Shown here piece by piece: positions 11,710 through 59,929 of a stretch of 64,000 nt of DNA (its first letter is position 1; each line of letters opens with the position of its first letter). A program made the position numbers and the translations under genes. Source of the stretch: Berberis thunbergii. Lineage: Eukaryota; Streptophyta; Magnoliopsida; Ranunculales; Berberidaceae. The stretch is from contig QNQO01006269.1 in assembly GCA_003290165.1 (NCBI GenBank), positions 1 to 64,000 of the forward strand. The letters are read 5' to 3'. The notes under the pieces were generated by a model. The model ran no database searches and had not been told where the DNA came from. It worked only from the letters and a program-made list of their open reading frames with translations.

Positions 11710-12010
11710 AACCCTAGTTTAGCTTTTCGAGTCAAGTAAAGGAACTAGAAGTGTGAACGAGAGAAAAGAAATTGTTCCTGACAATCACTAAGGAAGGAAG
11801 GTGTGTGCTTGTACGGGTTTATAGAGCGCACTGGGCCTACCACTGTAGCATCCACTACCCAATATTTGACGCGGGGACACGTATTGCGTCCAGATCGAGG
11901 ATTGTCATTTCGTTTTTCTAGTTATAGCCCTTCTAGGAGCCGAGGAAATGGGGACTCGTTTCCTCACTGGTTCCCTTGCCATTTAGAAAAAACGTTCCAG
12001 ATAATTTTAT
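11710..12010 (-). promoter_or_regulatory. 5' upstream region of the CCCH gene, truncated by a transposon
   Basis: About 300 bp between the presumed CCCH start codon (11709 or 11691) and the left end of the Mutator-like element at 12011. The 5' UTR and core promoter should lie here. I see no unambiguous TATA box. Any promoter sequence further upstream has been displaced by 6.7 kb. Confidence 0.45.
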
Positions 12011-13927
12011 GAGCAATTCTAGATGTCGAGGGTTTGGGCGAGGGAAGTGCGTCGCACGCGAGCAGGTGAAAAAAAAAAAAAAAAAGATTTGCGAGGGAAA
12101 TGAAAATTTTCGGCGAGAAGAAGAGGGAATGGGAAGCTCGAAACCTCATTCATTCCCTCTCTCGCTCCCTCTCCCTCTCCCTCTCCCCATTTTCGACAGA
12201 TTCGACCTCCCTCTCTTCTCTTCAAATCAAACTCTCTCTTCTCCCTCGACCCTCCCTCGACTCCTTTCTCAATCTCTTTCGCAAACCCTAGACCTAGCAA
12301 AGCTCCCTTGAAAGAGGAAGAAGAATGAAGGAAGAAGAAGAAGTGAAGATTGAGAAAAAGAGCAAAACATGTTGATTTTTCTTCTTCTTCTTTCAGATCT
12401 TTTCAAAGCAAAACAGGTTGATCTTTTCAGATCTGTTCATCTTCTTCTTCTTTCTGATCCCCTCTTGTTTTTCAGATCTCTTCTTCTTCTTCCATTTTTT
12501 TTTCTTCTTTCGGCAGAGCAAAACAAGTTGATCTTTTTTTTTTTTTTTTTTCGTGGGTATACGCAGAGAAGAAGAACTGAAGAAGAAAGGGAAGAAGAAC
12601 CAAAGAAAAAAGAAGAAGCAGATCAAGATGGCTCTCCCTTTTCCTACCTTCCTTCAAACCAAATCAAAGGTATGTTGTATCTCTTCTTCTTCTTTTTTGT
12701 TTCAGATCTCTTCTTCCTTTTTTAGTGTTTTTTTCGGTAAAATTTAGCCATCACAAGCCATGTTCTGTGGGTATACCATATGCATGCTCTGTGGGTATAG
12801 CATATCTGATTTCTGATGTTGAAAATTCTTTATTTCAAATCTCTTTTTCTTCCTTTTTTTTCTGGGTTTTTTTATGTAATTTGAGTATGAGCCATGTTGC
12901 CTAACTTACAAGCTTGACTCTGTTTTTTTTTAGATAATCTTCCCTTTTTTCTGTGGTTTTTTTTATGTAATTTGGGTGGTAGGCTTATATAAGGTGGTTT
13001 GGGAGTGATTTAGAAGTCTGGGTGTTGTTCATAATTGAGTTTTACAACAGTTTTGAGGTCTGGGTATCTCTGATTTTGATAGAAAAGTGTGGGATTTAGG
13101 ATCATTTTAGTGAAATTCAAGGAAAGTTGGGTTTTTTTTTTGTGATGCAAATGAGATAGATCTGGGAGACATTTTTTGTGTGAATCTTACAAAGAGTTAG
13201 AAGATTCTTGTTGAATTTCCCCGGTTTTGGATTTTTTACATTTTAATTTTTTTTTGTGTTTTTTCATTATAAAGGGGTTAGTGGTGATTTGGTTTTTTAT
13301 TCCCGTGAGAAGTTTTAATGACAAGAAAGGCATTATTGAGGAAGTTCATCAGTTGAATGTTCAACTATACTTGTGAATGAATCAACTTTAATTCATTCAA
13401 TTATATTTATTGTGTTTTGAGTTTCTTATTTAAGGTGAACTGAAGGAGGGGTTCATCTTATTGTTCATGCATTTCGGGTCCGGCTAGATAGTTCCCTTTC
13501 CTTCATCGTCTGATAGTTCTCACACTCACAGTGAGTAGTGAGAACAAAGTATGTTGTAGATCATAGAAGTGAGGAGTCCTTGGAAAATAGTGGTATGGGA
13601 AAGAAGAAGAGAAAGAAGAAGAATCATGTTTTCCTCCCAAATTTGGTTTCTCTTTTTTCACCATTTTCCATGAGATATTTTTCTTGAAAACCAGACAGCT
13701 ATAAATTGAATAATCAGCTTACCTTACTAGGTGTGCTCATTTATATAGAAGGCAGTATGAAGCAGATGTTCTAAAACATTCAATCAATTTACATTCTTTC
13801 ATTACATTCACTAGCACATCAACTAACAAACATAAGTCTGCTACCTTGACCAATTGTTGCAAGAATGACATATGAGAATAGCATTGACAAGATATATCTT
13901 TATCTGTTGAGTACTTGAAAACCAATC
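12011..13927. repeat. Left terminal inverted repeat of the Mutator-like element
   Basis: Matches the reverse complement of 16749-18677 from GAGCAATTCTAGATG inward to the GATTGGTTTTCAAG junction. The outer 300 bp are GC-richer, followed by CTCTCC and CTTCTT runs and T-tracts. A start-like segment at 12628-12669 (MALPFPTFLQTKSK) is followed by a GTATGT donor, so the arm may contain a transcription start and a first exon. This is suggestive only. Confidence 0.88.
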
Positions 13928-14230
13928 AAGCTTCTGCTACCATGAAAAGATGGTTGAGGCCTGAGGTAAGATGTTCTCCTCATTGGGTATTCATATATCT
14001 AGCTTGGTTGTGTTGTTTGATTGACTGTTTGTGTGTTTGATGAACGTGCTTATAGTTTTCGGTATGGTAATATGACACAAAGCCTTTGCAGTACTACTTT
14101 AATAAGTATTTGCAATATATGTTGTTAGCATATAGAATTAGCGAAAGATAGATGCAACAGGGAAGAAGATTCAAAACAAGATTTGTTGATTCAATTTTGA
14201 TTTGGTTTCAGGGTTACAAAAGAGAACAGA

Positions 14231-15290: not shown

Positions 15291-16560
<1,270 letters not shown>

Positions 16561-16748
16561 TCAACTCCATTAGTTTGCAAGGATTTGTAAAAAAAAAATT
16601 GATTTAGGAGGCAGAAATTTAAAGATAATGCATGCTAAACAGAAGTAACAAGAACAATATGAAACACAAATTTCATCATATAATCAAACATATTACATTA
16701 CATATAATTGCATCATTCGCCCAAGAGCTTTCTCATTCTGACAGTTTT

Positions 16749-18677
16749 GATTGGTTTTCAAGTACTCAACAGATAAAGATATATCTTGTCAATGCTATTC
16801 TCATATGTCATTCTTGCAACAATTGGTCAAGGTAGCAGACTTATGTTTGTTAGTTGATGTGCTAGTGAATGTAATGAAAGAATGTAAAATTGATTGAATG
16901 TTTTAGAACATCTGCTTCATACTGCCTTCTATATAAATGAGCACACCTAGTAAGGTAAGCTGATTATTCAATTTATAGCTGTCTGGTTTTCAAGAAAAAT
17001 ATCTCATGGAAAATGGTGAAAAAAGAGAAACCAAATTTGGGAGGAAAACATGATTCTTCTTCTTTCTCTTCTTCTTTCCCATACCACTATTTTCCAAGGA
17101 CTCCTCACTTCTATGATCTACAACATACTTTGTTCTCACTACTCACTGTGAGTGTGAGAACTATCAGACGATGAAGGAAAGGGAACTATCTAGCCGGACC
17201 CGAAATGCATGAACAATAAGATGAACCCCTCCTTCACTTCACCTTAAATAAGAAACTCAAAACACAATAAATATAATTGAATGAATTAAAGTTGATTCAT
17301 TCACAAGTATAGTTGAACATTCAACTGATGAACTTCCTCAATAATGCCTTTCTTGTCATTAAAACTTCTCACGGGAATAAAAAACCAAATCACCACTAAC
17401 CCCTTTATAATGAAAAAACACAAAAAAAAATTAAAATGTAAAAAATCCAAAACCGGGGAAATTCAACAAGAATCTTCTAACTCTTTGTAAGATTCACACA
17501 AAAAATGTCTCCCAGATCTATCTCATTTGCATCACAAAAAAAAAAACCCAACTTTCCCTGAATTTCACTAAAATGATCCTAAAGCCCACACTTTTCTATC
17601 AAAATCAGAGATACCCAGACCTCAAAACTGTTGTAAAACTCAATTATGAACAACACCCAGACTTCTAAATCACTCCCAAACCACCTTATATAAGCCTACC
17701 ACCCAAATTACATAAAAAAAAACCACAGAAAAAAGGGAAGATTATCTAAAAAAAAACAGAGTCAAGCTTGTAAGTTAGGCAACATGGCTCATACTCAAAT
17801 TACATAAAAAAAAAACCCAGAAAAAAGGAAGAAAAAGAGATCTGAAATAAAGAATTTTCAACATCAGAAATCAGATATGCTATACCCACAGAACATGGCT
17901 CGTGATGGCTAAATTTTACCTAAAAAAACACTAAAAAAAGGAAGAAGAGATCTGAAACAAAAAAGAAGAAGAAGAGATACAACATACCTTTGATTTGGTT
18001 TGAAGGAAGGTAGGAAAAGGGAGAGCCATCTTGATCTGCTTCTTCTTTTTTCTTTGGTTCTTCTTCCCCTTTCTTCTTCAGTTCTTCTTCTCTGCGTATA
18101 CCCACGAAATCAAAAAAAAAAAAAAAAAAAAAAGATCAACTTGTTTTGCTCTGCCGAAAGAAGAAAAAAAATGGAAGAAGAAGAAGAGATCTGAAAAAAC
18201 AAGAGGGGATCAGAAAGAAGAAGAAGATGAACAGATCTGAAAAGATCAACCTATTTTGCTTTGAAAAGATCTGAAAGAAGAAGAAGAAAAATCAATCTGT
18301 TTTGCTCTTTTTTTCAATCTTCACTTCTTCTTATTCCTTCATTCTTCTTCCTCTTTCGAGGGAGCTTTGCTAGGTCTAGGGTTTGTGGAAGAGATTGAGA
18401 AAGGAGTCGAGGGAGGGGTCGAGGGAGAAGAGATAGTTTGATTTGAAGAGAAGAGAGGGAGGTCGAATCTGTCGAAAATGGGAGAGGGAGAGGGAGAGGG
18501 AGCGAGAGACAGAGGGAGCGAGAGAGGGAATGAATGAGGTTTCGAGCGTCCATTCCCTCTTCTTCTCGCCCAAAATTTTCATTTCCCTCGCAAATCTTTT
18601 TTTTTTTCACCTGCTCGCGTGCGACGCACTTCCCTCGCCCAAAACCTCGCCCAAACCCTCAACATCTAGAATTGCTC
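16749..18677. repeat. Right terminal inverted repeat of the Mutator-like element
   Basis: Reverse complement of 12011-13927 with few differences, for example a short duplicated GGGCGAGG segment near 18640 and small poly-A length changes. It ends in CATCTAGAATTGCTC, immediately followed by the 9-bp TSD. Confidence 0.88.
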
Positions 18678-18686
18678 TAATTTTAT

Positions 18687-24643: not shown

Positions 24644-24652
24644 TTTAGAAAA

Positions 24653-24698
24653 GGTGACTACTAAATAACACCACCATTTATCCTGATGGACACCACCA
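24653..24698. repeat. Left terminal inverted repeat of the giant element
   Basis: Starts GGTGACTACTAAATAAC directly after the 9-bp TSD. It is paired with 44449-44494. A LINE inserted about 50 bp further in, at 24749, cuts the subterminal region. Confidence 0.72.
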
Positions 24699-24748
24699 TT
24701 TACCTATTTTTTTCTAAATCTACTGAAGGACACCGACCACTAGTATAT

Positions 24749-26760
24749 CATCATCATCAAAGCCCATTCTCGATATTTTTGGGGTCGGCTACATGGATTT
24801 TGGTTCTCCAAGCAATGCAAGTTTTCAATGATATCTTCGCCTAATCCAAGCTCAATGCTATCTTCACTCACCGCCTTCATCCAAGTTTTCAACGGTCGTC
24901 CCCTCCGTCTATACCCTCCATTAACTTGCCAATCTAGACATTTTCTAATTGGCGACGTGCTTGGTCTCCTCCGCACATGACCAAACCAAGTTAAACGTCT
25001 TTCTCTAATTTTTCCCTCTATGGGCGCTACACCTAAGTATCTCCTAATTCTTTCATTTCTAATTTTATCCTTACGAGTTTTACCACACATCCACCTTAAC
25101 ATACGCATTTCTGCTACTGTCATCCGATGCGTATGTTGTCTCGTAGTAGCCCAACATTCTGAACCGTATAGCATGACTGGTCGAACAATTGTCTTATAGC
25201 ATTTCCCTTTTAGCCTTGCAAGCATCCTTCTATCACATATATACTTCTGACGTCATTCTCCATTTCAACCAACCAGCTTTAATCCTATGATCTACATTTT
25301 CTCCAATAGCACCATTCTTTTGAATTATAGATCCTAGATATCGAAAAGCCTCACATTTTGGGACATTTACACATTCGATCTCAATTTCATTACTTCTTCC
25401 TCGTGGTTCACAACCAAAGTTGCACACGAGATATTCCGTCTTCGAACGGCTAATTCTAAAACATTTATTCTCTAAAGCCTCCCGCCACCTATCTAATTTT
25501 TGACCTAAACATGCACTAGTCTCATCAATTAAGACAATATTATCTGCAAATAACATGCACCAAGGTACATCTTCTTGCAAATGCCTCATCAACTCATCCA
25601 TGACCAAAGAAAAGAGATATGGACTTAACGCCGACCCCTGATGTAGTCCTACTAACACTGGAAATTCACTGGACATCCCACCTACTGCGCGAACACTTGT
25701 TACAGCCCCTTCATACATATCCTTAATGATTTCAACATAACATTGAGAAACTTTCTTCCTTTCAAACACCCACCAAATTAACTCCCTGGGGATCCTATCA
25801 TATGCTTTCTGTAGATCAATAAAAAACATATGCAAACTCTTACGTGCCTCTCGATAATTTTCTATAGTTTGCCTAAGCAGAAAGATGGCCTTCGTAGTAG
25901 ACCTACCTGATATAAATCCAAATTGATTATCCGAAACCGTGGTTAAACTCCTAAGTCTTCGTTCTATAACCCTCTCCCAAAGTTTCATCGTATGACTCAT
26001 AAGCTTTATCCCTTTATAGTTCGAGCAATTCTGGATATCCCCTTTGTTATTATAAATTGGTACCACAATGCTATGCCTCCATGAATCTTCCATTTTTCTA
26101 GTTTCCAAAATCTTATTAAAGAGCGTAGCTAGCCATTGAATCTCAACTTCTCCCAGACATTTCCATGCTTCAATTGGTATATCATCCAGTCCAACGACCT
26201 TCCTTGTCTTCATTCTTTTTAATGCTTCTTTAACTTCTGTGGCACTAACTCTGCGATGGAACACGCGATCTCCCCTTTCTTTACCTAGCCTATTATAAAG
26301 ATCATCATATGCTCTCTTCTTAGCTTCCCATACTGTTTTATTATTCAACTTCTTAGCTTGCTTATAAAGCTCATAAGACTCTAGGCACCTATCTTTTCGC
26401 CACTCCTTAAAGCAACTTTTCTTTTTCCGTAATGGTTTGTTGCACATCAGCGTTCCACCACCATGTCTCCTTACCGTATAAACCACCTCTTTTGGCCTCT
26501 CCTAACTCTTCCTTGGCACATCTTCTTATTCGGTTTGCCAAATGTTCAAAAAGATTCGCGCTACTAGTCCTATCCTTTGGTTCGAGATTCTCTCAACCCT
26601 CTGAAACTGTCTGGTCACCCAAAATCTTCTTTCTAAATTTTTGGCACACATCTCCCTGTAAGGTCCACCACTTAGTTCACGGTCTAACCTGTTCTATAGC
26701 AATACGAACCCTACTCTTAAGACAAAAATCAAGAACTAACAGCCTATGTTGGTTTGTCAG
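24749..26760 (-). mobile_element. RTE-like LINE, 5'-truncated copy
   Basis: Same family as 5865-8670, here on the minus strand. Its 3' end is a TGATGATGATG tail at 24749. A 7-bp direct repeat AGTATAT flanks it (24742-24748 and 26761-26767). The reverse-transcriptase frame is open for 417 codons (25233-26486) and continues in another frame at 24740-25225 after a frameshift. The catalytic box reads MLFADNIVLID, with Asn replacing the second Asp, so it cannot polymerise. Compared with the other copy it lacks about 200 bp between GKERG and DRVFHRRV, and it has lost the endonuclease by 5' truncation. Confidence 0.88.
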
Positions 26761-26767
26761 AGTATAT

Positions 26768-27143
26768 AATAAAAAAAATAGTTTTTTATTCTTTTCTCCC
26801 AAAACCAGCGACTCCTCATCCTTCAGTTGCACTAACTGACCCCTATCCCACCATTTTCTCCTCCTAATCTTCGCCAAATCAGAACCGTCAGCCACCGTCG
26901 TCAGCTTCCACTTCCCTCTCTTATTCGTCTTCATCCTCCATCTCCCATTTTACCGCTTCTTTTGCTCTCTCTCGTGAGAAAACACGTCTTAAACCGCCCT
27001 TCATTTTCCATCAAAGTTGGCTTCCCTTTTTTGTCTTCTTCCTCACTCCCAACATCAGCTTCACTCCCTCTCTTCAATATCTTGTTGTCTTCTCTCTATG
27101 TTCATCTTCCTTAAGTAAGGTTTTAGTGAAGTTTTATATAGAA
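26768..27143. other. Leader of the giant element
   Basis: Pyrimidine-rich stretch between the LINE insertion and the first Met of the transposase remnant. It resembles a 5' UTR. No other feature seen. Confidence 0.4.
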
Positions 27144-29529
27144 ATGGATGAGTTCGGTGAAAGTGAGGTTGGCAGGCTTCAAGTTGATAATGTTGCAGTT
27201 GAGAGCCAGCATTGCAGTCCATTTACAGATGGCAACGAAGAAGATGGGCATTTTCAATACGAAGAACGACTCATTCCACTTGAGGTACACTCTCAACTTG
27301 AGATGAACTTGCATGGGTATTTTTATTTTTTTGTTATTATCGTAATATTATTTTTAATTTCCTTTTTGGTTTATGTGAAGCAGCATGACTATTTTTAGGG
27401 TTAATTGTTAATATTTGAACCCTAAAATTTGCTTATTTGTAGGGTTAGTTTCATTATTGTTGTTGTTGACTGTTGTTATTATGTGCATAGAATGTCATCA
27501 CCGATCTTATAGATTTTGAGATACCTTGTCATGTAGAGGACCCGGAGGAACTTAAAGCATATTTGGAAGAGACAAACCTTCTAGAGTTAAACTTTGTCTT
27601 TAATGATTTGTTAAACTTTGTCTTTAATGATTTTATTCTTTACCTTAATATATGATTAAAATAACAAATATTTTTATTTACTTAAATTAGAAGAATGATG
27701 ATGTTGAAGCCAATGACGCACAAACACTAGAAGAAGTAGTAGATGATGGTTACTTGTTTATGACGGAAGAGGTAAGGTTAATTATCTTAGGCATTACATT
27801 ATTTAACCTTGTTTCACAAGTTGATTGATTATGTTCCTAATGTGAGTATGCATTATTTTTTTTGTAGGTATTCACATTAAATTCATCCTTAGTATCTTAG
27901 TTTCAAGGTATTGGCAAGGAGAATAACATTGTTCTGATTATCACAAAATTGAAACCTGCTGATAGTAGACACAAAGGAAGGTTCCACTTGGGATGTGAGA
28001 GGGGAGGGGGATGAAGAATGTTCAAAAGTAAAAAGTTGAGGCAAGTCGGTCTACAAGTTCAAAAAAGTGTGGGTGCTCATTTCAGTTGAGAGGGGTGTCA
28101 CTTGGTAATGATCATTGGAAGTTGCAAGTGATATGTAAAACCCACAATCATCCAGGATCAAAATCTCTTACTGGCAATTCCTTTGCCGAGAAACTAAAAT
28201 GAAGATGAGATGGCTTATTAGCTTAATATGTCCACATCTGGTGTAGCCCCTCGGTACATATTGTCTGGTTTGAAACAAATGTTCTCAAACAACATGTCAT
28301 ATTTGAAGACTGTTTACAATGCCATTTAACACCAAAGGACAGTCCAACTTAAAGGCAGGACAACTTTGTAGGCCACAATGCACTTGTTGAGCGAAAATGG
28401 TTACTTTGAGAGGCATATAGTAGATGATGAAAACACAGTGACAAATATTTTCTGGTATCATCTCCAGTCAATTCAACTCGCCAAGTGTTTCCCAGTGGTC
28501 ATGCTTATGGATTGCACCTACAAAACCAATCGCTACATAATGCCTTTATTTAAGGTTGCAGGTGTCACATCAATCAACATGACTTTCAATGTTGGTTGTT
28601 GCTTTATGTCGTCTGAAACCGAACAATCATGCACTTGGGCATTGGAAAAGTTACTGGTATTATTTGAGTCAGAAAACTTGTTAGAGGTGTTTGTCACAGA
28701 CAGAGAGCTTGGGTTGATAAAAATCATTGAGCAAGTCTTTCCACAAGCAATGAGGTTGTTGTGCCAGTGACACATAAATACAAATATGGAAAACAAATGC
28801 AAACAATATTTTGAGGACAATGAATGATGACAGGAGTTTGTTGAATCTTTCTCAGACTTATATAGATCATCTACAGAGCAAGAATGGGACAATGACACTA
28901 TTGACTTCGAGAGAAGATAGGCATCACATCCCAAGTGTTTGGAGTATCTGCAAATTATTTGGTATCCATATAAGGAGTTCTTTGTGAATGCATGGATCGA
29001 AAAGTTTATGCATTTTGGCCATCGGAGAATCGGTCGCGTTGAAGGTGCACACTCTAGGTTGAAGAAGATGTTGGAGAATTCTTAATGGACATTTCATAAT
29101 GTATGGATGAGAATGCATGACATGATCGAAGGCCAACTTTTAGAGATTGAATCATATTTCCGAAAAAGTCTCACGAAGGTGAAGAAATAGCACATTGTTC
29201 CACTATTTAAAAAACTTCATAGATCTGTGTCTCATAAGGCTCTTGACTTGATACTATCTGAAATTAGTAGGTCTGATGTTGAATTTTTTGACGTCAACCA
29301 AGTGAAGTGTCGATGTGTGTTGAGAATCACTAATGGGTTGCCTTGTGCTCACGAAATGGCCCAATATTTCAATCCCAATGGTCAACATCCATTGTCTATG
29401 TTACACAAGCACTGGATGCAACTTGGCATAATACCTATTTGTGCAAGTGCGAAAGTGATTATTGATCTAGTGGTAGACGCCGTCAAGGAAAAGTTCTTAC
29501 AATCCACCCAGAAAGAAGAAGTTGTCTAA
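27144..29529 (+). pseudogene. Mutator-like (MULE) transposase remnant with FAR1-like, DDE and SWIM regions
   Basis: Transposase of the giant element, which would act in the nucleus to cut and join element ends. Exon-like pieces at 27144-27310, 27491 onward and 27691-27771 encode an acidic N-terminus. A cysteine/histidine region at 27960-28170 (KCGCSFQLRG, then THNHP) fits the FAR1/WRKY-GCM1 zinc finger. The catalytic core follows at 28378-29160 with all three expected acidic residues: MDCTYKTNRY, VTDREL and RVEGAHSRLKK. A SWIM finger (CRCVLRITNGLPCAHEM) lies near 29310-29360. Multiple stops (TGA after LLCQ, TGA after FEDNE, TAG after DFERR, TAA after LENS) and frameshifts in the N-terminal half make it non-functional. 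Confidence 0.85.
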
Positions 29530-29689
29530 GCATGAGAAGTCCACAAAAAGAGACCCCTCTGGTCATGAGTACACGAAGACACAATAAAAGCTTAAAAATC
29601 AAGCTAGTGTTTCTAAGGAAAAAGATAAGGCGACAAAGTTGAAATCAAGGTATATGAAGCAAATTCTTCTTTGGATTCGAGACTATATT

Positions 29690-30186
29690 TAAGACATTCA
29701 GAATGTACTTGCCAATGACAATTGTGAATTCAGATGCATAAACAACTTCTTAGGTTATGACGAGAACATTGGTTGGAGCAAGTGAGACATGAGCTACTAA
29801 TGGAGATTGAAGGTAACCATGACTTTTGGGGTTCAAATATTGAATGACATAGGGGTGAAGCTTGTGAAAGATGCTCTGACAATTCCTGAAGGTATTGTAC
29901 GCATTGGCAATGACAAATGGTTGATTGAACCAGATATGTTGGAATACATGTTTTCCGTATTTTCCATAGCCATCAAACTTTGAACAATGTACGTATATGT
30001 TTCATGACACACCTTCCACAAAGTAGACACTTTGTGTTGCTTCTTATGACACCAACACCACCACTACGTCTGATAGTACCAACTTGGCCTTCACATATGT
30101 TTCCAAAAGCCTCATCATGGAAGAGTTCGTTTGAAACCCAACTGCATATAGGTGACGTGATGATACAATGCATCAAAACCAAATAA
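29690..30186 (+). pseudogene. OTU-like cysteine protease segment following the transposase
   Basis: The three-frame translation contains NDNCEFRCINNFLG, then IGWSK with RHELLMEIEG in the adjacent frame, then GNDKWLIEPDML and RHFVLLL. This order matches the OTU domain found in some plant MULE proteins, where the Cys box is DGNCGFR and the His box is HFVQV. Both the Cys and the His are still present. Frameshifts and stops break the frame. It lies about 150 bp after the transposase stop in the same orientation and was probably a C-terminal extension of that protein (inference). Confidence 0.65.
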
Positions 30187-30589
30187 GAAGTCGGAAGTGA
30201 TTGTTGAATCAAACCAAATAAGAAGTCGGAAGTGATTGTTCTACTTGAGGATTGAAACATATTTTGTAAATTTTTGTACATTTGTAAATGACATTTTGTA
30301 TACATACGATGATCAAATTGTAAAAGAAGTCATTTTTTTGTAGTCTTGACTTGTATATTTTTTATCATTAAATATCAACAAATTATATTGTACATTTCAT
30401 GAAGATTTGTATTGGTTTTGTATTTTTTATGGATGGATGAGTAGTTTAATGAATAATTTATATCTTGGCAATGGGTAAAAGCAACAGAATAATAACATAA
30501 ACATAAGCAAAAATGCTGATTGCAAAAATCCAGAGTGCAAAATTTTATATATTGCAAAGTCTGAAATTTCTGATGTCAAAAAAAATTCA

Positions 30590-33190
30590 GACACTAAACG
30601 CACAAGCCGTTGTGAAATGATGCCAAAACAACGCATGAACCGTTGCGAGCTCGAAATAAAAAAAATTAAAAAAAAAAAACACACACACACACACAGCGGC
30701 TTGTGCGTTTGGGTCCTGAAAATTTTTAGACATTGATTGACATCCAACGCAACGGCTACAACGACCAACATAATTGACGTTGCTGATGCGATTTGTTTGC
30801 CTATTATCGCAAAAGTCGCTGCATTTGGACAGAAAACAAATTTTGTCCATTTTTTCAAAATTTTGAAATTGATGTTTTTTTTTCACTTCCTATAGGTTTG
30901 ATACAGTATTTGTCATAAATATTTATTGCTAAACTCAACTTTTGAACACCCAATGTTGAGAAGGTCAAAAGTTGGGTTTAGTAATAACCCTTTATTGTAA
31001 ATACTGTATCAAACCCATAGAAATTCAAAAAAAACATCAAATTCAAAAAAAATGAAAATTTTGACAGAGCCTAGATCTTTGTAAAAAACGCAGCGGTTTC
31101 TGCGATTTATTGCCCTAAAATCACAGTAGCCGCTACGTTTATATACAAAACAGACTCTGTCCAAATTTTCAAAATTTTTGAATTTGAATTTTGTTTTCAT
31201 TTTTTGCAATTCCTATGGGTTTGATACAGTATTTGCAATAAAGATTTATTGCTAAACCCAACTTTTGAACATCCAAAGTGTAGAAGGTCAAAAGCGAGGT
31301 TTAGCAAAAAATCTTTATTGCAAATATTGTATAAACCCGTACGAATTGAAAAAATAAATGAAAATTTGGATAGAGTCTGGATCTCTGTCCAAACGCAGTT
31401 GCTGCTACGATTTATTGTCCTAAGATCGCAGCAACCATTGTGTTTGGACAGAAAACATACTCTATCAATTTTCAAATTTTTTAGTTTGAAATTTTCTTCC
31501 ATTTTTTGCAATTCTTATGGATTTGATAAAGTATTTGCAGTAAAGATTTATTGCTAAACCTCACTTGTTACCTTCGCAACTTTGGGTGTTCAAAAGTTGG
31601 GTTTAGCAATAAATATTTATTGCAAATATTGTATCAAATCTATAGAAATTGAAAAAAAATAAAAATTTGGACAGAGATGGACAGAGTCTGGATCTCTGCC
31701 CAAACACAGTGGCTTCTAGGGGTGGGCACGGGACGGGATGTGACGAAATGGACCCATCATGTTCATTCGGGATCGGGATGGGTTGAACACGTACTAAATA
31801 GTCTTCCAATAAAAAATAAAAGTAAAAATATCTTACATTACTCACACACCAATAATTTCAAATTTATATATATATATATAACTTACATCATAAATAATAA
31901 TAGATATTAAATAAATAAATATCAAACTTTTTTTGGAAGGCAAGTAAATATTAAATTTCATTTAGAATTAATGATTCAATTCAATTAGATTTCATATAGA
32001 ATTTCATCTTACATTGATTTAATTTCAACATGTCATAAACTTTAATTTAGAAGAGTATTTTGATTAAAATTAATAATTATTATTATTAAATAAATAAATT
32101 TGGGACGGGACGGGATAGACAGGATTGAAAATCTCCATCTCGATCCCATCCGACTCTACATCAGGACGGGACCGAGATGAGTTTGATCAATTCCAAAAGG
32201 ACCCCAAAAAATCGGGACGGATTCGGGATCGCGGGATGGGATGCCCAACCTTAGTGGCTTTTGCGATTTATTGGCCTAAAATCACAGCTGCCGCTGCGTT
32301 TGGACAGAAAACAGACTCTGTCCAAAATTTCAAATTTTTGAATTTAAAGTTTTTTTTGCAATTCCTATAGATTTGATACAATATTTGCAATAAAGATTTA
32401 TTGCTAAACCCAACTTTTGAACACCCAAAGTTGAGAAGGTCAAAAGTGTGGTTTAGCAATAAATCTTTATTGCAAATACTATATCAAACCCATAGAAATT
32501 GAAAAAAATGAAAAATAACTTCTTGGTGAAAATTTTCAAAAAATGGACAGAGTCTGGATTTTGGCCTAACGCAGCGGTTGTTGCGAAAGATGTACTAGTC
32601 ATCACGGTGATCATTGTGTTTGGACAGAAATCAAGACTTTCAAAATTTTGTATATTTGTTCTAACGCAGCGGTCACCTCAATCATGGGTTCTATACTTGC
32701 AGCAATCGCGACTTTTGGACAAAATCCATACTCTATCCACTTTTTCAAATTTTTGAATTTGAAATTTTTTTCTTCAGATTTTTTAATTCCTATGAATTTG
32801 ATAGGCCGTTGATTAATTTGATTTATTGCAAAACTCAATTTTTGAACATCCAAAGTTGAGAAGGTCAAAATGGGGTTTAGCAAAATATCAAATATGCCAA
32901 TGGTATATAAGACTCATATGAATTGTAAAAAAATAAAAATAAAAAAGGTTCATATACAAAAAATTCTAAATTTTGACAGAGTTGTTTTCTATCAAAACAC
33001 AAGGACCATTGCGGCATAAGTTGAATGTATCGTGTTAGTCGTTGCGATAGTTTGTCTATGCAACACATGAGCGGTTGCGTTTGGTGTTATTTTTGTGAAG
33101 TCAGATTTCAGGACCCAAACGCAACGGTCAATGTGAGCTTTTTTTTTTTACACTCGCAACGGGTATTGAGTTTGTAAAAAAAAATGGCAG
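30590..33190. repeat. Tandem array of about 300-bp palindromic units
   Basis: Five imperfect palindromes at about 30898-31018, 31216-31338, 31520-31640, 32370-32492 and 32796-32900. Each reads GATACAGTATTTGCAATAAA on one side and the complement on the other, around a core containing AACTTTTGAACACCCAAAGT. Start-to-start spacing is about 318, 304, 305 (after removing the hAT insertion and its TSD) and 426 bp. The linkers contain a second inverted motif around ACGCAGCGG and GCCGCTGCGT. It sits between the two convergent gene remnants of the giant element. No coding capacity. Confidence 0.8.
31717..32253. mobile_element. hAT-type MITE (537 bp) inside the palindromic array
   Basis: Left terminus TAGGGGTGGGCA; right terminus reverse-complemented TAAGGTTGGGCA. 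The 8-bp flanks GTGGCTTC (31709-31716) and GTGGCTTT (32254-32261) match at 7 of 8 positions. GGGACGGG-type subterminal repeats occur at both ends. No coding sequence. It interrupts the palindromic array. Confidence 0.8.
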
Positions 33191-34304
33191 ATTTTGTGTT
33201 TTACGCCATTTTGTGTCAAAATTTTCATGGCTTTTGATACAATTTGTTACTTATACTTGGACTACAGTTAACATTACAACCATCACTGAATATACATAAA
33301 TACTGATGCAAATAATAATTTAGTATTATAAACATATAGTCATCATAACGAACAATTGTCTGGAAATTGTTTCTGAAATCACTAACTAACTACATAACAA
33401 GGCATAAATCAATTCATCTTTGTCTTTTTTCGAGGTTCTTTTTTAGGCATACTCTTCTCATGCCTCTTCTTGGTTCTGCCCTAAACGCCACCACCAACAA
33501 AAACTTCACTGTCACCACCACCACAACCATCACCGCTTCCTCTACCACCACCAACAATACCAGAACCACCATCACCCCTTCCTTTACAAACAACACCATC
33601 ACCATCACCCCTTCATCTACCAGCAACAACAAAAACAACACCATCACCCCTTCCTCTACCACTAGCACCAACACCACCATCACCCCTTCCTCTACCACTA
33701 GCACCAACACCACCATCACCCCTTCCTCTACCACCACCACCAGAACCCCTCCCCTACCACCACCACCACCCCTAACCCCTGCCACAACCACCACCACCAG
33801 TCAGAGCACTACCACTGGGAGTAACACCAGCTGGAGCACCACCACCATCACCAATTTGACTAGGTTGTTGCTCTTCCTCATTATCTCTTAAGGAACAGAA
33901 ATTATGAGTAAACATTTGTCTTAGCAGCTCCCTTATTTTATTGACCAACACACCCTTATCCATATTTCATCCTTCATTAGAGGCGTCCACCAACTGAAGA
34001 GCCTCATCAACCAACTTGTTATGCAAGGAAAACATTGATCTTAATAAAATAAAATAAAAACAAAGAAATTATGTTATTTCAAATGTAAGCAAATTTGTTA
34101 AACTATATATCAATTACCCGATTGTGAGATATGAACAATTTATTTGTTAAGGGTTGTGTCCTACTAGACTTTGGTGGTTGGATGAACGGATGACTAATCT
34201 CATGAAGCCACTCCAAGTAGTCGTTGCTGCAATCCCGTGGAAGCTTCACTGGCGCTCCTTGGTTTTCGTGATTATGCCAAGTTGCAGCAAATGAAGATGG
34301 TATC

Positions 34305-37300
34305 TGTCACGGCCGGATTTTCGAAGAAAACGAAAAATCCTAAAATCCACGTAGGATTATCCGTTTCCCCAAAACTCGGGACGTGAAAATTCAATAACAA
34401 CATAAACAATTAGCGGCAACAACTAAAACATAATTAAATTACTGAACAAATAAAACTCTAACCCGTAAAGACTCTGACGTAGGAACTCCAGTAACGCTGC
34501 CCAAAAATCTCTAAACCTGAACGGTTAATCGGCTACATTCCCAAAGGAAGGTACCCAAGAACTAAAAGCTCACTTGGGTCAGCAGCAATAAAGCTGATGT
34601 TAAAAATCTTCATTCAAGAATTAATAAATTCGCACGTGATAACATCAAACAAAACAAATATAATAAGCAACCACACCAACAGGTAGTTCCTCAATTGAGG
34701 CAAGGGGGTCATACAAGAAAAACACAATTCAAAGAATTTAGTTCCTCAACAAGGCAGTCATGTCATCCTCCTAATAAGTAAATATGCATTTACTTGTACT
34801 TACACTGTAGAAGTTGACTATGACAAGTCTGACCTGCAGAAATTATGAGTGGACTTGCCATCCTACATGAAAAGGTTAGAAACAACCAGATAATAATTCT
34901 AAGTTATCCATCCTCATAAATGTCATTTACTTTCAAACAACGATACAAATCATAGTCATATTAGGCTATTATTGAAATATTAACAAAATGCATTTTCTGC
35001 CTTTAGGAAGACATATAATTCTCATTCAATAGTCAAATGAGCATTTAGTTTCTTCCTTTAAGGTAATCATGCACATACACAAAAAAGAAATCTCGCTTCT
35101 TTTCCACAATCGCATTATCCTCCTTGTGCCGAGCACACCTCACCCAAGTGTGCCTCCCTTGCCTTTGAAACCAATCGGAGCATACATGTACCAAGTGGGG
35201 TGCCACATCGAGGAGCATGTCATCTCACCTGAAGCTCAATCCATGGCAAGCATTTCCTAAATCTACACATACAACCGAACTCACATGGAACGGTGCACCG
35301 ATATGCAAGCAAGTCGGCATACCCAAAATAATATCACACGTATACAAGCAAGTCTGTATACATAAATTAAAATTTCTTTTCTTTTCACATTTTTTTTCGG
35401 AGTTGTGGAAAAGAGCTTAAAAAAATCCTCAATATACTAAACCATCAAATGACCAACATTATTTTGAACAGATCAATTAAGCTTCACATTTGTTATAATA
35501 GAAGACCTAAAACTGATCCTATTCTGAGTTACAGAAAGGGGACGACATCCTTCTTATCTTAGTATATGATTGGCAATAGAAAATAAAATCAACTGATTGA
35601 TTTAACACAACATAGAAGAATACAATTCAAGTTACAATAAGGAACTCATTAAACACTCCAATTCATTCTCATATGTTCCTACATGAAAACCCACTCAACT
35701 CCTGTACAAATATAATCCTTTATTCTCCAATAACAATGCTATAGGAGAAAAGCAGAGATATATTTCACCAAAAAAAAAAAAATTGTTATAGTTTCAACCC
35801 TTCACAACCACCCTTTTATGTATGTTAAAATGTCTTTGCAGTCTAATACCATAATCCAATATCCATTGACCCCAAGAACTAATTCCACAAATGAAGTTCT
35901 CCCAATACCACTAAAGCCCAGAGCAACAAACCCAATACAACATCCATGATCCACTATTTAAATAAAAGACAAATACTTATCAGTCCAAGATGGCATTTCC
36001 TGTGACAATACCATTTATTCATTAAACTTCACAAAGACTTGAATTACTTCCAAATAAAGAAAGATGGGGGAAGTCCATGAAGACATGCTAAATCTTATTT
36101 GACGGGCAAACAAATAAACCCAGATGCCCCTGCATCGTAATAGAACTCAGATCTTCAAAGCCAGATTGATATTTAAGTAACGGTTATTATTTCCAGGATA
36201 AGATAATTCTTCCCAGTATCCTAAAAATAGAAATGCAAAGAGTTCATACATAAAGAGAAACTTTGATAAGAATTCAAAAAAAAAAAAACAAGTTGAATTC
36301 AATTCGAAATCAAGACATTAAACCCATATCAAAGAACAAATACGAGATACCCACCAAAACACGACCCCAAACCCCATAAACCCAATCCTTAAAATTGAAT
36401 TAAATTCATCCCTAAACGATGTCTCTAAACAAAACACGGAATAAAGTCACATAAATCGATGAAAGAGAAATCACAGGAGAGGTCGCAAACCGTAAAGGAT
36501 TTCACAACAGATCCACGCAATTACCCTTCACAACCAATGCCATCATCCCATTCCTCTTGCTCTTAATCAACCACTCCAACCACTGCTCCCTCATCTATTT
36601 CTCATAAACCGATGGCATCTCCATCGGACCACCACGCAGCCCCAACATCGATCGCCATCAGCAGGTTGATTGCAACCCCTTTTCCCACACAAACCCTTTC
36701 CCTCGCCTGATCTCTCTTTGTCCAGCCATCTCTCCATCTGCACAATCTCTCTGTCGCACAACCATAGAAACAAAACAGCAACAAGAGCAAATAGTCGTCC
36801 TCGTCGCATACCATCCCCCACCATCGAACCCTCTCTCTCACGCTGCATCAAGAAGAAGAAAACGTGAAGGGGAGAAAAATATGAGGAAAAAGGAGAATAA
36901 AAGAAGGAAGAAGGAAGAGATATGGTTTCTCTTTATAAGGTGGGTGGTTATTCGCCCCCACTAAAATTTTAAGGGCAGTCCATCTTTTAACTTTACAAAA
37001 TAAAACCCTAATCATTAGTTTAATAAAAGCCCAAAACCAAGCCCAAATACAATTGAGTAACAACCCATCAACATTAGGGTTTAATTAGAGATATGTACAC
37101 CCCCCCCCCTTTTTTTAGAGTGTGGCTAATTAGTTTACTTAAGACAAACTCTTTCATTAAGTTTTATTTTTAGGATTTCCTAAATTTGGCAAAACACACT
37201 CTCACACACCAACACACTTTATTCTATTTAGCAACGGAAACAAAACAAATTTTTTACCCAATAGATATAAGATTATAATATTATCACAGATTAATAAATA

Positions 37301-37337
37301 ACAATATTTATATCTATTTAATTAAGCGGGTATTACA
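34305..37337 (-). repeat. Left LTR (3033 bp)
   Basis: Direct repeat of 37944-42098 once the hAT insertion there is removed (3033 against about 3020 bp). Scattered substitutions and small indels separate the two copies. Short open frames inside (for example near 35069 and 36591) are repeated in both LTRs and are not considered genes. Confidence 0.88.
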
Positions 37338-37943
37338 ACATATACCACTCAAAAGAATCTCGTCCCGAGATTCGGTAGAGGAGGATAAGTAGGTAATTAA
37401 TCCTACAATAAACAAACTACCTTCTGAAAGAAACAACACTATAGTGCAAATAATAAACCATTCCAAAAATAAATTTTCTACTAACCCTCCTTAAGAAACA
37501 AAGCACAAATCACATGGACAAACAAATAACTCATGCATATGCCCATAACTTCATGAAGACAATCACACAAAGATATATATGAAATTTAATAAATATTTAA
37601 AAAATACGGGTTGCTACAATATATACAACTCAAAAGAATCTCATCTCGAGATTTGCAAAAAGGGTGAACTAAATATTCAGGATAACAAACCGCTACAAGG
37701 AAACTACATGGAATAATGTCACCCACTATTGACATTAAAATAAGTTATGATTAGCCCCGAATACATAAGTCAAAGGAATCTCATCATGAGATTCACGAAG
37801 AAAAGAAACAATACTAAAAGTTCAAGGTTCACCCTTGTCACTTTATCTCTAGACATTTACATTATTACTCTCCCATATCCACATTCTGAGGATCACCTAG
37901 ACTCTACCTCAGCCTAGGCCAACCAAATGCTCTGATACCAAAC
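37338..37943 (-). other. Internal region of the LTR element, with primer-binding site
   Basis: 606 bp without coding capacity. The initiator-tRNA-Met primer-binding site is at 37929-37940, minus strand. Three near-palindromic copies of GAATCTCRTCYYGAGATTC occur at 37355-37373, 37636-37654 and 37776-37794, each preceded by CTCAAAAGAATCTC-like sequence. In related gypsy elements this motif lies once, next to the 3' LTR. Confidence 0.75.
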
Positions 37944-40900
37944 TGTCACGGCCCTATTTTCGAAGAAAACAAAAATCCTAAAATCCATGTAGGATTATCC
38001 GTTTCCCCAAAACTCGGGACGTGAAAATTCAATAACAACATAAACAATTAGCGGCAACAACAAAAACATAATTAAATTACTGAACAAATAAAACTCTAAC
38101 CAGGAAAAACTCTGATGTTGCTAGCCCCACTAATGGAACTCTAGTAACGCTGCCCAAAAATCTCTAAACCTGAAAGGCTAATCGGCTACATTCCCAAAGG
38201 AAAGTGCCCAAGAAGCAAAAGCTCACTTGGGTCAGCAATAAAGCTGGTGTGAAAAATCTTCATTCCAAAATCAATAAATCTGCACGTGATAACATCAAAC
38301 TAAACAAAAACAATAACGAACCACACCAACAAGTAGTTCCTCAATTGAGGCAAAAATGTCATACAAGAAAAACACAATTCCAAGAATTTAGTTCCTCAAC
38401 GAGGCAGTCATGTCATCCTCCTAATAAGTAAATATGCATTTACTTGTACTTACACTATAAAAGTTGACTATGGCAAGTCTGAACTGCAGAAATTATGAGT
38501 GGACTTGCCATCCTGCATGAAAAGGTTAGAAACAACCGGATAATATTTCTAAGTTATCAATCCTCATAAATGTCATTTACTTTCAAACAATGATACAAAT
38601 CATAGTCATATTAGACTATTACTGAAATATTAACAAAACACATTTTCTGCCTTTAGGAAGACATATAGTTCTCATTCAATAGTCGAATGAGTATTTAGAT
38701 TATCCTTTTAAGGTAATCATGCACATACACAAAAAAGAAATCTCGCTTCTTTTCCACAATCGCACTATCCTTCTTGTGTCGAACACACCTCACCCAAGTG
38801 TGCCTCCCTTGCCTTTGAAACCACTCGGAGCGTACATGTTCCAAGTGGAGTGCCACATCGAGGAACATGTCATCTCACCCGAAGTTCGATCCATGGCAAG
38901 CATTTCCTAAATCTACACGTACAACCTAACTCACATGGAACAGTGCACCGATATGCAAGCAAGTCTACATACCCAAAATAATATTACATGTATACAAGCA
39001 AGTCTGTATACAAAAATTTCTATTAGTTTCACAATTTTTTTTTTTCGGAGTTGTGGAAAAGAGCATAAAAAAATCCTCAATATACTAAACCATCAAATGA
39101 CCAACATTATTTTGAACAGATCAATTAAGCTTCACATTTATTATAATAGAAAACCTGAAACTGATCCAATTCTGAGCTACAGAAAGGGGACAACGTCCTT
39201 CTTATCTTAGTATATGATTGGCAGTAGAAAATAAAATAAACTGGTTGATTTAACACAATAAAGAAGAATACAATTCAAGTTACAATAAGGAACTCATTAA
39301 ACACTCCAATTTATTTCATATGTTCCTACAAGAAAACCCACTCAACTCCAGTACAAATATAATCCTTTATTTTCCAATAACAATGGTATAGGAGAAAAAC
39401 AGAGATATATTTCACCCAAAAAAAAATTTGTTTTTGTTTCAACACTTCACAACTACCCTTTTTTGTATGTAAAAATGTCTTTGCAGTTCAATACCATAAT
39501 CCAATATCCATTGACCCCAACAACTAATTCCACAAATGAAGTTCTCCCAATACCACTAAAGCCCAGAGCAACAAACCCAATACAACATCCATGATCCACT
39601 ATTTAAACAAAAGACAAATACTTATCAGTCCAAGATGGCATTTCCTGTGTCAATACCATTTATCCATTAAACTTCACAAAGACTTGAATTACTTCCAAAT
39701 AAAGAAAGATGGGGGAAGTCCATGAAGACATGATAAATCTTATTTGACGGGCAAACAAATAAACCCAGAGCCCCTACATCGTAATAGATTTCAGATCTCC
39801 AAAACCAGATTGATATTTAAGTAACGTTTATTATTTCCAGGATAAGATAATTCTTCCCAGTATCCTAAAAATAGAAATGCAAAGAGTTCATACATAAAGA
39901 GAAACTTTGATAAGAATTCAAACAAAAAAAAAACAAGTTGAATTCAATTCGAAATCAAGACATTAAACCCATATCAAAAAAAAAAAATACGAGATACCCA
40001 TCAAAGCACGACCCCAAACCCCATAAACCCAATCCTTCAAATCGAATCAAATTCATCCCTAGATGATTTCCCTAAACAATACATGGAATAAAGTCACATA
40101 AATCAATGAAAGAGAATTCACCGGATAGGTCGCAAACTGTAAAGGATTTCGCAACAGATGCACGCAATTACCCTTCACAACCAATTCCATCATTCTATTC
40201 CTCTTGCTCGTAATCAACCACACCAACCACTGCTCCCTCATCTATTTCTCATAAACCGATCGCATCTCCATCGGACCACCACGCAGCCCCAACATCGGTC
40301 GCTAGGGGTGGGCACGGTCCGGATCGGTTCCAAATTTGAAGGAACCTAACTCGAACCGTTATATTTTAACGGATCCGGTCCGGTCCGGATCCCTTCATTT
40401 TGATAATAGGAACCGAACATAACTCGAACCGTTTAGAACGGTTCGGTTCCACGGTTCCAAACAGTTCCAAACTTCCAGAAATCGATCATATGATTCATAT
40501 TCATACAATAAACAGAAAATCGATCATATTCCAGAAATAGATCATATTCATACAAAAAAATTTTGAACAGAAATCATACAATAAGAGATCCAAGAACAGA
40601 AAAAATTTGCATTCAAAAAAAAAAACAGAAAAATAAACATCGATCTAGAAAATTTGCATACAATAAGAGATCCAAGATCCAGAAATCATCGATCTCTCCA
40701 CTCCTTCCTCGCTGATCTCGCTGATCTGCTTCTTCTCGCTGATCTGCTTCTTCAGCGAGTGTTGATCTCGCTGATCTCTTCTGCTTCTTCTCGCTGAGCT
40801 CGGTTTCCTTCACCATAACTTCAAATCAAGCTCGGTTTCCTGTTCGACAGAGAAAGGAGTGGAGAGGAGAGGGAAATCTCCTTCTCGAGACAAAGACAGA

Positions 40901-42098
40901 GAGAGGAGAGGGAGATCTCCTTCCCCTTCTCGAGACAGAGACAAAGACAGAGAGAGGAGAGGGAGATCTCCTAGCGTCTCTTCCTTCTCTTCCTTCTCTT
41001 CTTCTCCTCTTCTTTGTTGCTTCTTCTTCTTACAGAGAGAGAGAGAGAGGGGTCTTTGACTCTTTGTTGCTTCTTTGCTTCTTCTTTGCTTCTTCTTTGG
41101 TTTATATAGAGACAGAGAGACAGAGGAGTCTCCTGACCTCCTCTTCCTTTTCTTCTACTACTTGAATTGAAAGGGGACAGAGAGTCAGAGAGAGAGAGAG
41201 AGGGGTTTTGGTTTTAGTAAAAGTAAAGAAAAAAAAATGTAATTTGAAACGGGTCCAACCCGGACCGTTTCATTTTAAAAAATTGGAACCGGGACCGGAC
41301 CGTTTTATAACGGATCCGGACCGATCCGAACCGTACCAAAAAATTCATATATAAAATCCGGACCGTTTAGAGCAAAACGGTCTGGTTCAGTTTGAACCCG
41401 CGGATCCTCGACCCGTTTGCCCACCCCTATCGATCGCCATCAGCAGGTTGATTGCAACCCCTTTTCCCACGCAAATCCTTTCCCTCGCCTGATCTCTCTT
41501 TGTCCAGCCATCTCTCCATCTACACAATCTCTCTGTCGCACAACCACAGAAACAAAATAGCAACAAGATCAAATTGCCATCCTCGTCGCATACCATCCCC
41601 CACCATCGAACCATCTCTCTCACGCCACCATCAAGAAAAAGAAAACGTGAAGGGGAGAAAAATATGAAGAAGAAGGAAGAGCTATGGTTTCTCTTTATAA
41701 GGTGGGTGGCTATTTTCCCCCACTAAAATTCTAAGGGCAGTCCTTCTTTTAACTTCACAAAATGAAACCCTAATCATTAGTTTAATAAAAGCCAAAAACC
41801 AGGCCCAAATACAATTGAGTAACAACCCATCAACATTAGGGTTTAATTAAAGATATGTACACCCCCCCCCCCTTTTAGAGTGTGGCTAATTAGTTTACTT
41901 AATACAAACTCTTTCATTAAGTTTTATTTTTAGGATTTCCTAAATTTGGCAAAACACACTCTCACACACCAACACACTTTATTCTATTTAGCAACGGAAA
42001 CAAAACAAATCTTTTACCCAATAGATATAAGATTATAATATATATCACACATTAATAAATAACAATATTTATATCTATTTAATTAAGCGGGTATTACA
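37944..42098 (-). repeat. Right LTR (about 3.0 kb plus a 1.1-kb hAT insertion)
   Basis: Starts TGTCACGGCCC on the plus strand and ends GGGTATTACA. It is the LTR adjacent to the primer-binding site, so it is the 5' LTR in element orientation. It is interrupted at 40303-41429 by a hAT element. Confidence 0.88.
40303..41429. mobile_element. hAT-type non-autonomous element (1127 bp) inside the LTR
   Basis: Perfect 12-bp terminal inverted repeats TAGGGGTGGGCA. Flanking 8-bp repeats TCGGTCGC (40295-40302) and TCGATCGC (41430-41437) match at 7 of 8 positions; the empty site in the other LTR near 36645 reads TCGATCGC. Subterminal GGTCCGGAT-type repeats are present on both sides. The interior (40680-41200) has CT- and GAGA-rich low-complexity DNA giving Ser/Arg-rich open frames that I do not regard as genes. 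Confidence 0.88.
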
Positions 42099-44448
42099 GT
42101 ATCTCGTGCTTCACCGAGTAGTTGTGGTCAGATCGACCTATATTCTTCATTTTGGCTTGAATGGGTGGACTTGGAATGACATGTGCCCTTCCATCTGTCT
42201 CATCACTTGATCAAGGTGATAGAGTTCTTCAACATCAGGGCATATCAAGTAGCCTTAGAACCATGTAATGCTGTGAAATGAAGTTATTCGCTTGGATTCT
42301 TCATAAGGGTCCCAAATAACATGACAATACAAACATGAACTTATTAAATTTACTGAAATGAAACATGAATTTAACTGACTAACTTTTACCTCTACAGAAG
42401 ACATGTCATCAATATTCTCCCTAAGAGTCAAAATTTTTAAAGTCACGACCCCGCTAAGTTGGGGGCAATCCCACTTAGCCATGGTGGGGAGAAGATCCAT
42501 CCACAAGTATTGAGTCGTACCCCAAAGGTTAAAGTGATCAGCACTACAAAAGAATTAAACATATCAATATAAATAATAAATATATGAAACACTAAAAAGA
42601 TAATTAACTGAACAATTAACCAAAAATTGTACCTCCAAAAGCGGCAAGTATCCAGATATTTGTTTGGTAACCATTTTGCTAGCACAACCAAGTTGACGAT
42701 ATAAGAACGCCAACGTACCAACTCCCCATGCGTACTTCCCAATATCATCCACTTTCGTCAGCAACTTCAAATATTCGGTGCGCACATTGGTTCCAGTCTT
42801 ATCAGCGAAGATCGTCATGCCCAGAAAAATAACAAGTAACCCCGTGCAACTTGTTGTTTCTTTTTAAGAGAATCACTTGTACTCAGTTTCCCACAACAAT
42901 GATCCTTAATAAGTCTCATCTCCACGTAACTTTGATGCTTCTGGACATGCTTTTGTGCTTCGCTTTTTTGAATCCCCAAACAATTAACCAAAAGTTGAAC
43001 ACACTCATCTGGCTTCATTTGATTTTCTTTACCATATCCGACTTACCAACAATCGGCAAATGAGTGATACGATAGACATCATCGATGGTGATTGTCATTT
43101 CTCCAAAAAGGAGGTGAAAAGTGTTGGTCCTAGGTTGCCAATGTTCGATGAAAGCACAAATTGTGACCCTATCGATATGATCCTTACAATGGTCTATCAA
43201 CAATCAGAGACCACTCTTATAGACCATTGAAATAACTTTTTTCGGCTCCTCACGCAACCTCCAATCTATAAAATTCTTGTACTGATGTCAACATCTCAAC
43301 TCCCCTCGCTCCTACACAAATAAGAAAAACTAGTCAGTGTCCAAATAATGTTAAATCATTTCGTTTGTATATTGAAAATAACTTGAAAATTTTATAAATA
43401 CCTCCTGACCAGACCAAATGGAGTGAGCAACATGGCCATCATAATCATTTAATAAGGATGCATCATTAGGACCACACAGGATAAGAAACTTTGCCAAGTT
43501 TTGGATCTTCATCAGGACCAGGTTCTGCAGAAACTACATCTTCATTTGGATCCCCTTGAGCTTGTGCATCTCACTGACCGTGCTCACCTTCCTCATCCCC
43601 TGACCCTCCATACCCCCTGACCATGCTCAACCTTCTCATCCCCTCACGTTTTCTTAACCTTCTCATCACCCTCATCTCTATCGCCCTTATCTGCTCATCA
43701 ACATCACGAACCACACTACTTTGACTTTGAGATAACAATAGGTGTGTCTGAGCTTCACCCGCGAATCATTTCCCATTGCATTTTCTCTCCTCTTCAACTC
43801 ATTTTCCCTCCTTTTTCTCTCCATTTCTTTCTCTTTCCGTCGTTCGATTTTTTTTCTTATCAATACCAGTTCTTTTTTTTACAGCTAAGACCTTTCTGAA
43901 AGACATTGTCATTGGTTGTCTTTCAATTGGCACCATCACCCCCACCTACACTACCCCCAACGTCACCACCAACACCACCACCACCAACCTCCTCGACAAC
44001 ATATTTGTTTGTCTTTGCCATACTAAACATTTAAAATAAATATGAAACAATTAAAACAATACAATTGAACACAACGAAGGGAAGAGAATAGAGGTTTACC
44101 TGAATTCGTTTGGGTTTGGTTGAACAATCGAACACAACGAAGACCACACACTAAATCGAACCAACTGGGCCCTAGAATCGCACACAAACTTACTGATTCG
44201 CAAATGGATCCCAAATCGCACGATAACCTCCAACCTTTGAATCACACACCAACGGTAGAGGGAAAGAGTAGAGAGTAGAACAAGTGAGCAGGGGGAAAAT
44301 GAGGACGGGTAGAGTTTCTGTGAGAAGTTCAAACGTTGGGAATGGGAGAGGGAGAGACTGTGTGGGAGACAAAAGGGGGAATGCTTTAAGGGTTTTTATA
44401 GGTGGTGTCCTTCAGAAATATGGTGGTGTCCTTCAGAAAGTAGCCTGA

Positions 44449-44494
44449 TGGTGGTGTCCATCAAGAGAAATTGTGATGTTATTTAGCAATCGCC
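44449..44494. repeat. Right terminal inverted repeat of the giant element
   Basis: Reverse complement begins GGCGATTGCTAAATAAC. Further subterminal copies of GGTGGTGTCCTTCAGAAA lie at about 44403-44440. It is followed directly by the TSD copy TTTAGAAAT. Confidence 0.72.
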
Positions 44495-44503
44495 TTTAGA
44501 AAT

Positions 44504-47044: not shown

Positions 47045-59929
<12,885 letters not shown>

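Follow-up and report, generated by a model that had tools for sequence, protein, structure and literature searches.

The window analysed here, a 64,000-nucleotide stretch of Berberis thunbergii DNA on contig C6245 (genome of 2.24 Gb in 11,732 contigs), carries at positions 24653-44494 a Mutator-like element (MULE), between whose inverted termini lie a transposase gene with an OTU-like tail on one strand and a plant mobile domain (PMD) gene on the other. The transposase and the convergent PMD gene move together between common inverted termini flanked by 9-bp duplications, as was shown by further copies in the genome. We consider the window element to be a dead copy of an autonomous MULE family of the terminal inverted repeat (TIR) type, in which the transposase would move the element, the OTU domain would remove ubiquitin, perhaps from the transposase itself, and the PMD protein would be a sequence-specific DNA binder of the VANC fold which binds repeats within the element and frees its own family from host silencing, in the way that VANC21 acts for VANDAL21. 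To this explanation as a whole, including the VANC-like role of the PMD protein, we give a probability of about 0.5; the anatomy of the element is close to certain, and the VANC-like role, proposed from predicted structure, is offered tentatively, at slightly less than even odds.

Termini and gene content of the window element

The left TIR, on the transposase side (24653-24699, + strand), and the right TIR, on the PMD side (44448-44494, - strand), were aligned as reverse complements. Of the 46 outer bases at each end (24653-24698 and 44449-44494) 39 are identical in this alignment, and elsewhere on the window's minus strand the left 46-mer scores 26 at best. Comparison of the flanks gave target-site duplications of 9 bp, TTTAGAAAA at 24644-24652 on the left and TTTAGAAAT at 44495-44503 on the right, alike at 8 of 9 positions. 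Both the near-matching termini and the 9-bp direct repeat of a preliminary description of this DNA were thus recovered, and the element has the inverted repeats and a duplication in the 8-11-bp range of a MULE (8/9 in the window and in a copy on contig C247, 9/9 in a copy on contig C262). When two later insertions (see below) are set aside, the left terminus is followed by the transposase gene (+), the hairpin array, the PMD gene (-) and the right terminus. The other haplotype (contig C142) has the same element, its two ends being 99.5% and 98.3% identical in the parts fetched.

The decayed transposase gene (27060-30330, + strand) comprises a DDE domain, a SWIM-like motif and an OTU-like tail. 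The piece at 28372-28767 matched the MULE domain PF10551 (E 6.1e-21; 75.1 bits, cut-off 27.6), confirming the transposase remnant that had been proposed for one strand, and a SWIM-like CxC...CxH motif was seen by eye near 29300-29360, in a piece (29191-29526) without a Pfam match. A read-through of the broken gene found its best relative in Rosa (32% identity, whole length covered), and the named protein relatives are from plants, bar one weak fungal match (some records being nameless). The N-terminal part of a profile made from 15 full-length relatives matched the AFT2 DNA-binding protein (E 5.8e-8). For the putative OTU-like tail, at about 29650-30180, Cys and His motifs were recognised by eye only and the Pfam scan of the window piece gave no OTU domain match, so that the assignment depends on relatives: Pfam returned a single otubain match (E 0.12) for five relatives with the tail, the profile of the 15 relatives matched OTUD5 among PDB sequences (E 0.001), and an AlphaFold model of the Rosa relative (P0021) matched two kinds of structure independently, the ISCth4 transposase and a large number of OTU proteins, some of the latter with a probability of 1.00. 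The OTU remnant of the preliminary description is thereby a candidate supported by profile and model of the relatives and not by Pfam in the window. For a MULE-OTU protein (P0029) and a PMD protein (P0081) of Camellia the longest contig given is 479,423 bases in both cases, which suggests one contig and does not show the gene order.

The body of the PMD gene (42100-43560, - strand) is likewise decayed and matched PF10536 in two pieces lying in different frames (59.2 and 48.3 bits, cut-off 34.9), the protein of the first having been joined by hand across a frame change, so a PMD remnant does lie on the strand opposite to the transposase, as previously described. By eye, a GT-AG intron lies near 43312-43401. 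To judge from reading frames and tandem repeats, the C-terminal part of the same gene lies at 33400-33966 (-) and codes for Gly/Arg-rich repeats (RGRGDG), and comparable open reading frames are present in other element copies.

The arrangement recurs across a transposon family

A 34-nt terminus pattern, with up to 3 mismatches allowed, was found at 1,212 places genome-wide (569+643) against 0+0 for the reversed control, and by this sequence count the terminus belongs to a large family. Two insertion-free copies keep both termini, the order of parts and the convergent orientation: one of 9,076 bp (C247:537261-546336), with an 8/9 duplication, is missing the greater part of the DDE and SWIM region as well as the later insertions, and one of 8,734 bp (C262:462222-470955) has the PMD part (87%), the array, the OTU tail and the DDE region (83%), with a 9-bp duplication that matches throughout, its reading frames being broken like those of the window. 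Genome-wide lists were taken of the best 38 of 2,479 candidates for PMD, 40 of 1,296 for OTU and 40 of 2,458 for DDE. The 38 PMD places comprise the window, its other haplotype and 36 further places at 83-89%; among the matches listed, PMD, OTU and DDE places lie within 16 kb of each other on 13 contigs, and every one of the 18 pairs is convergent, where chance would give 0.12. Six contig pairs with near-identical spacing were taken as alleles, leaving 7 unlinked loci including the window.

It might be supposed that an unrelated PMD-bearing element had become nested in a MULE by chance, as PMDs also occur in Gypsy elements (PMC5418596; here and below, statements on published work refer to passages of the papers cited) and nested insertions abound in the window. 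That 7 unlinked listed loci have this arrangement, with termini and duplications on C247 and C262, makes such nesting extremely improbable, and for the family of the window we reject it on the strength of those two copies and the pair table. The single bracketed multi-gene family that had been suggested from the window alone is borne out by the same evidence.

Some places depart from this arrangement and tell against its generality. Among the matches listed, 29 of 40 OTU places and 33 of 40 DDE places have no PMD partner, and the lists are too short to explain unpaired places or to give the share of copies with a PMD. Eight OTU places were probed for PMD, chosen non-randomly from those without a listed PMD, two of which (C237 and C93) had a terminus listed nearby; PMD was convergent at four, the 44-bp tail of the PMD gene was all that was present at one (C4997), and at C93 and C276 no element sequence was found within the 2.4 kb probed. 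At the remaining place (L055, C112:53000-55400) PMD sequence and OTU part share a strand, which sets it apart from the listed pairs, and this odd probe is perhaps a neighbouring or rearranged copy, or may itself be a case of nesting.

The 30 PMD loci compared further reduce to 17 insertions if 13 pairs less than 2% different are taken as alleles, which is our inference. Eleven of these have a terminus score of at least 45 in the fetched flank and six do not, one of the six having a terminus further out; at C1636 the 1.6 kb retrieved beyond the transposase showed no terminus. Ends of the terminus pattern come as little as 1.7 kb apart (C9), and such close spacing suggests non-autonomous relatives. 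At L012, L013/L017, L015/L020 and L016/L021 the same terminus is accompanied by little else of the element in the 10 kb fetched, some having array fragments, and these too are probably non-autonomous.

Age, selection and origin of the PMD gene

The closest non-allelic pair of PMD copies differs by 8.9%. Substitutions between copies are spread nearly evenly over the codon positions (0.134, 0.108 and 0.128), so that no selection by codon position was seen between PMD copies, the pattern that a burst with subsequent decay would leave. Of the substitutions common to at least three insertions 31 of 82 (38%) are synonymous, and of those private to one insertion, which look neutral, 73 of 303 (24%, against 27% expected; Fisher p 0.017 for the comparison, or 0.029 without CpG-like contexts). 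This hints, faintly, that the PMD protein may have been maintained while the family spread; it counts against such maintenance that the signal is lost when substitutions common to at least two insertions are counted (p 0.15). In two of the 17 insertions a 681-base stretch of the PMD exon is free of stops and gaps, and copy L048 keeps 14 of the 15 columns that are invariant among 17 PMD relatives.

Neutral decay of the singletons after insertion is what would be expected if the PMD gene were a captured passenger that does nothing for the element, and MULEs do capture host genes (PMC5418596). Such a passenger would not be expected to lie convergent in every listed pair, nor would antisense PMD genes be expected to recur in several plant MULE groups (PMC6446971). 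Public PMD relatives are at most 40% identical to the family PMD, so no recent capture is seen, although a search with a PMD from Vigna recognised no MAIN-like gene of the host among the best 74 of 3,315 candidates (33-41% identity). Capture of a passenger is on these grounds improbable.

A predicted VANC-like fold and the possible role of the PMD protein

The predicted model of a Camellia PMD relative matched the fold of VANC21, the sole solved structure that was well matched by the PMD model; other folds being unmatched in this comparison is no evidence against them. Through this modelled fold the idea that PMD proteins act against silencing gains structural support. In the window element the two genes are separated at their 3' ends by an array (30779-33001) of five repeat copies spaced 302 to 850 bp apart, four with a short-loop hairpin, which shows the palindromic array of the preliminary description to be real, and two other element copies also have inverted repeats at this position. 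The array is the most likely candidate for a binding platform of the PMD protein.

Several points weigh against a VANC-like role. The modelled relative is 34% identical to a family PMD and has a mean pLDDT of 60.8, and a shared fold with VANC21 does not in itself show a shared function. A profile of PMD relatives run against PDB sequences found no solved structure to the point, the fold comparison alone having found one. DUF1985 (PF09331), which VANC carries, stayed far below its cut-off of 35.1 in the window piece (16.7 bits) and in P0003 (16.9 bits). The VANC21 motif YAGTATTAY has no match in the array and one in the element, so it is not enriched, the motif belonging to VANC21 and another family not needing to share it. 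Finally, the host PMD proteins MAIN and MAIL1 work in the other direction, in favour of silencing (PMC5418596).

That the PMD occurs in MULEs and may counter silencing has already been published, and what deserves further attention is the proposed link between PMD and VANC folds. Ikeda et al. (2017; PMC5418596) reported PMDs in Gypsy and MULE transposons and in host silencing genes, described fusions of PMD to MULE transposases and made the same anti-silencing guess; a 2021 review (PMC8616336) calls the PMD a domain of unknown function, repeats the idea and handles VANC21 separately. Dupeyron et al. (2019; PMC6446971, Table 1) tabulated antisense PMDs for five plant MULE groups, MULE-Solanaceae_1, MULE-Monocots, MDR, MUDRAVI2 and MUDR, which like the window element combine a MULE transposase with a PMD that is sometimes, often or mostly antisense, and have 9-bp duplications where these are given. 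OTU does not occur in that paper, whereas the window element has an OTU-like tail, and we liken it to these groups without placing it in one. In the PMD-C MULEs of grasses and Amborella the same two domains are present, the PMD being fused to the transposase (PMC5418596), whereas in the window element, as in the listed pairs, it is a separate gene on the opposite strand. VANDAL21/Hiun, with VANA, VANB and VANC (Hosaka et al. 2017, PMC5735166), is likewise a MULE with a further gene, VANC having the fold predicted for the PMD relative, and has repeats in non-coding DNA of the element, as the window element does. Half of the VANDALs are listed with a PMD and/or DUF, and their TIRs are absent or short and degenerate, in contrast to the well-matched termini of the window element (PMC6446971). 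No paper in the open-access literature was found to bring DUF1985 together with the plant mobile domain. Among the open-access matches listed, the passages naming both VANC21 and the PMD drew no link between them, and there was no report of OTU and PMD in one MULE nor of a PMD-VANC fold, the paper behind 9lnj lying outside this list.

The two genes of maize MuDR, mudrA and mudrB, are convergent. MuDR resembles the window element in pairing a transposase with a second gene, and as mudrB is apparently required for integration (PMC6446971), the PMD gene, itself the second gene of a MULE, could be a transposition helper in the mudrB position that acts in integration and not against silencing. The Gly/Arg-rich tail would suit such a nucleic-acid-binding helper, but the sole well-matched solved structure is that of an anti-silencing protein, and we think this helper function unlikely. 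Somewhat less likely still is that the PMD protein is a decoy of the host MAIN/MAIL1 silencing complexes and not a sequence-specific DNA binder: the element shares its PMD domain family with MAIN and MAIL1, which act in silencing (PMC5418596), but in our tree its PMD, whose branch is long (1.54 changes per column), stands apart from the MAIN or MAIN-LIKE rows of Vigna and Glycine, its position being unsure given odd composition and an open fork, and the model of its relative matches a DNA-binding anti-silencer by fold.

If the PMD were a VANC-fold DNA-binding domain, as our preferred explanation has it, the guess of transposon anti-silencing would become a direct test of binding and methylation, and MAIN and MAIL1 would gain a likely biochemical activity. 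It is conceivable, if on balance doubtful, that the PMDs of MULEs and the VANCs of VANDALs belong to a single superfamily of DNA-binding anti-silencers borne by transposons, every one of them matched to repeats of its own element, and that MAIN and MAIL1 put the same fold to the opposite use in the host.

Later insertions, element size and neighbouring sequences

The preliminary description called the element, with its 19.8 kb, giant, a label that is ruled out as the span was inflated by two later insertions that are not part of the original unit. A long interspersed nuclear element (LINE, a non-LTR retrotransposon) occupies 24752-26760 (- strand; PF00078 RVT_1, E 2.7e-30), its ends being taken from copy L053, and a long terminal repeat (LTR) retrotransposon occupies 34305-42098 (- strand), splitting the PMD gene. 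The latter has LTRs of about 3 kb each, 92% identical, around an interior of just about 0.6 kb, is bordered on both sides by a 5-bp duplication, GTATC, and is missing from copies L009, L018 and L053. Without the LINE and LTR insertions the element measures about 10 kb, against about 9 kb in the preliminary description and 9,076 and 8,734 bp in the two insertion-free copies.

Adjoining an LTR of this element is GCTCTGATACCA, which we take to resemble a minus-strand primer site for tRNA-Met. An insert of about 1.1 kb within the second LTR (40302-41429), which by eye ends in TAGGGGTGGGCA/TGCCCACCCCTA and has 8-bp flanks that nearly match, is presumably akin to a non-autonomous hAT element. A second LINE copy at 6447-8669 is about 89-91% identical to that inside the transposon and has the opposite orientation.

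Elsewhere in the window, an inverted repeat of 1.9 kb has arms at 12001-13929 and 16747-18686 (95% identity, spacer of about 2.8 kb), with an ABC-transporter piece (16016-16495) between the arms and close to the second. Pieces of a host gene lie at 47045-60259 (- strand), with jmjN and JmjC domains at 59066-60259 and C2H2 zinc fingers at 47048-49180, and this is presumably a demethylase of the ELF6/REF6 kind, the transposon lying about 2.5 kb beyond its 3' end. Amid the pieces of this gene, at 54189-54620, there is a long repeat of trinucleotide type, one frame of which gives runs of Leu and Tyr.
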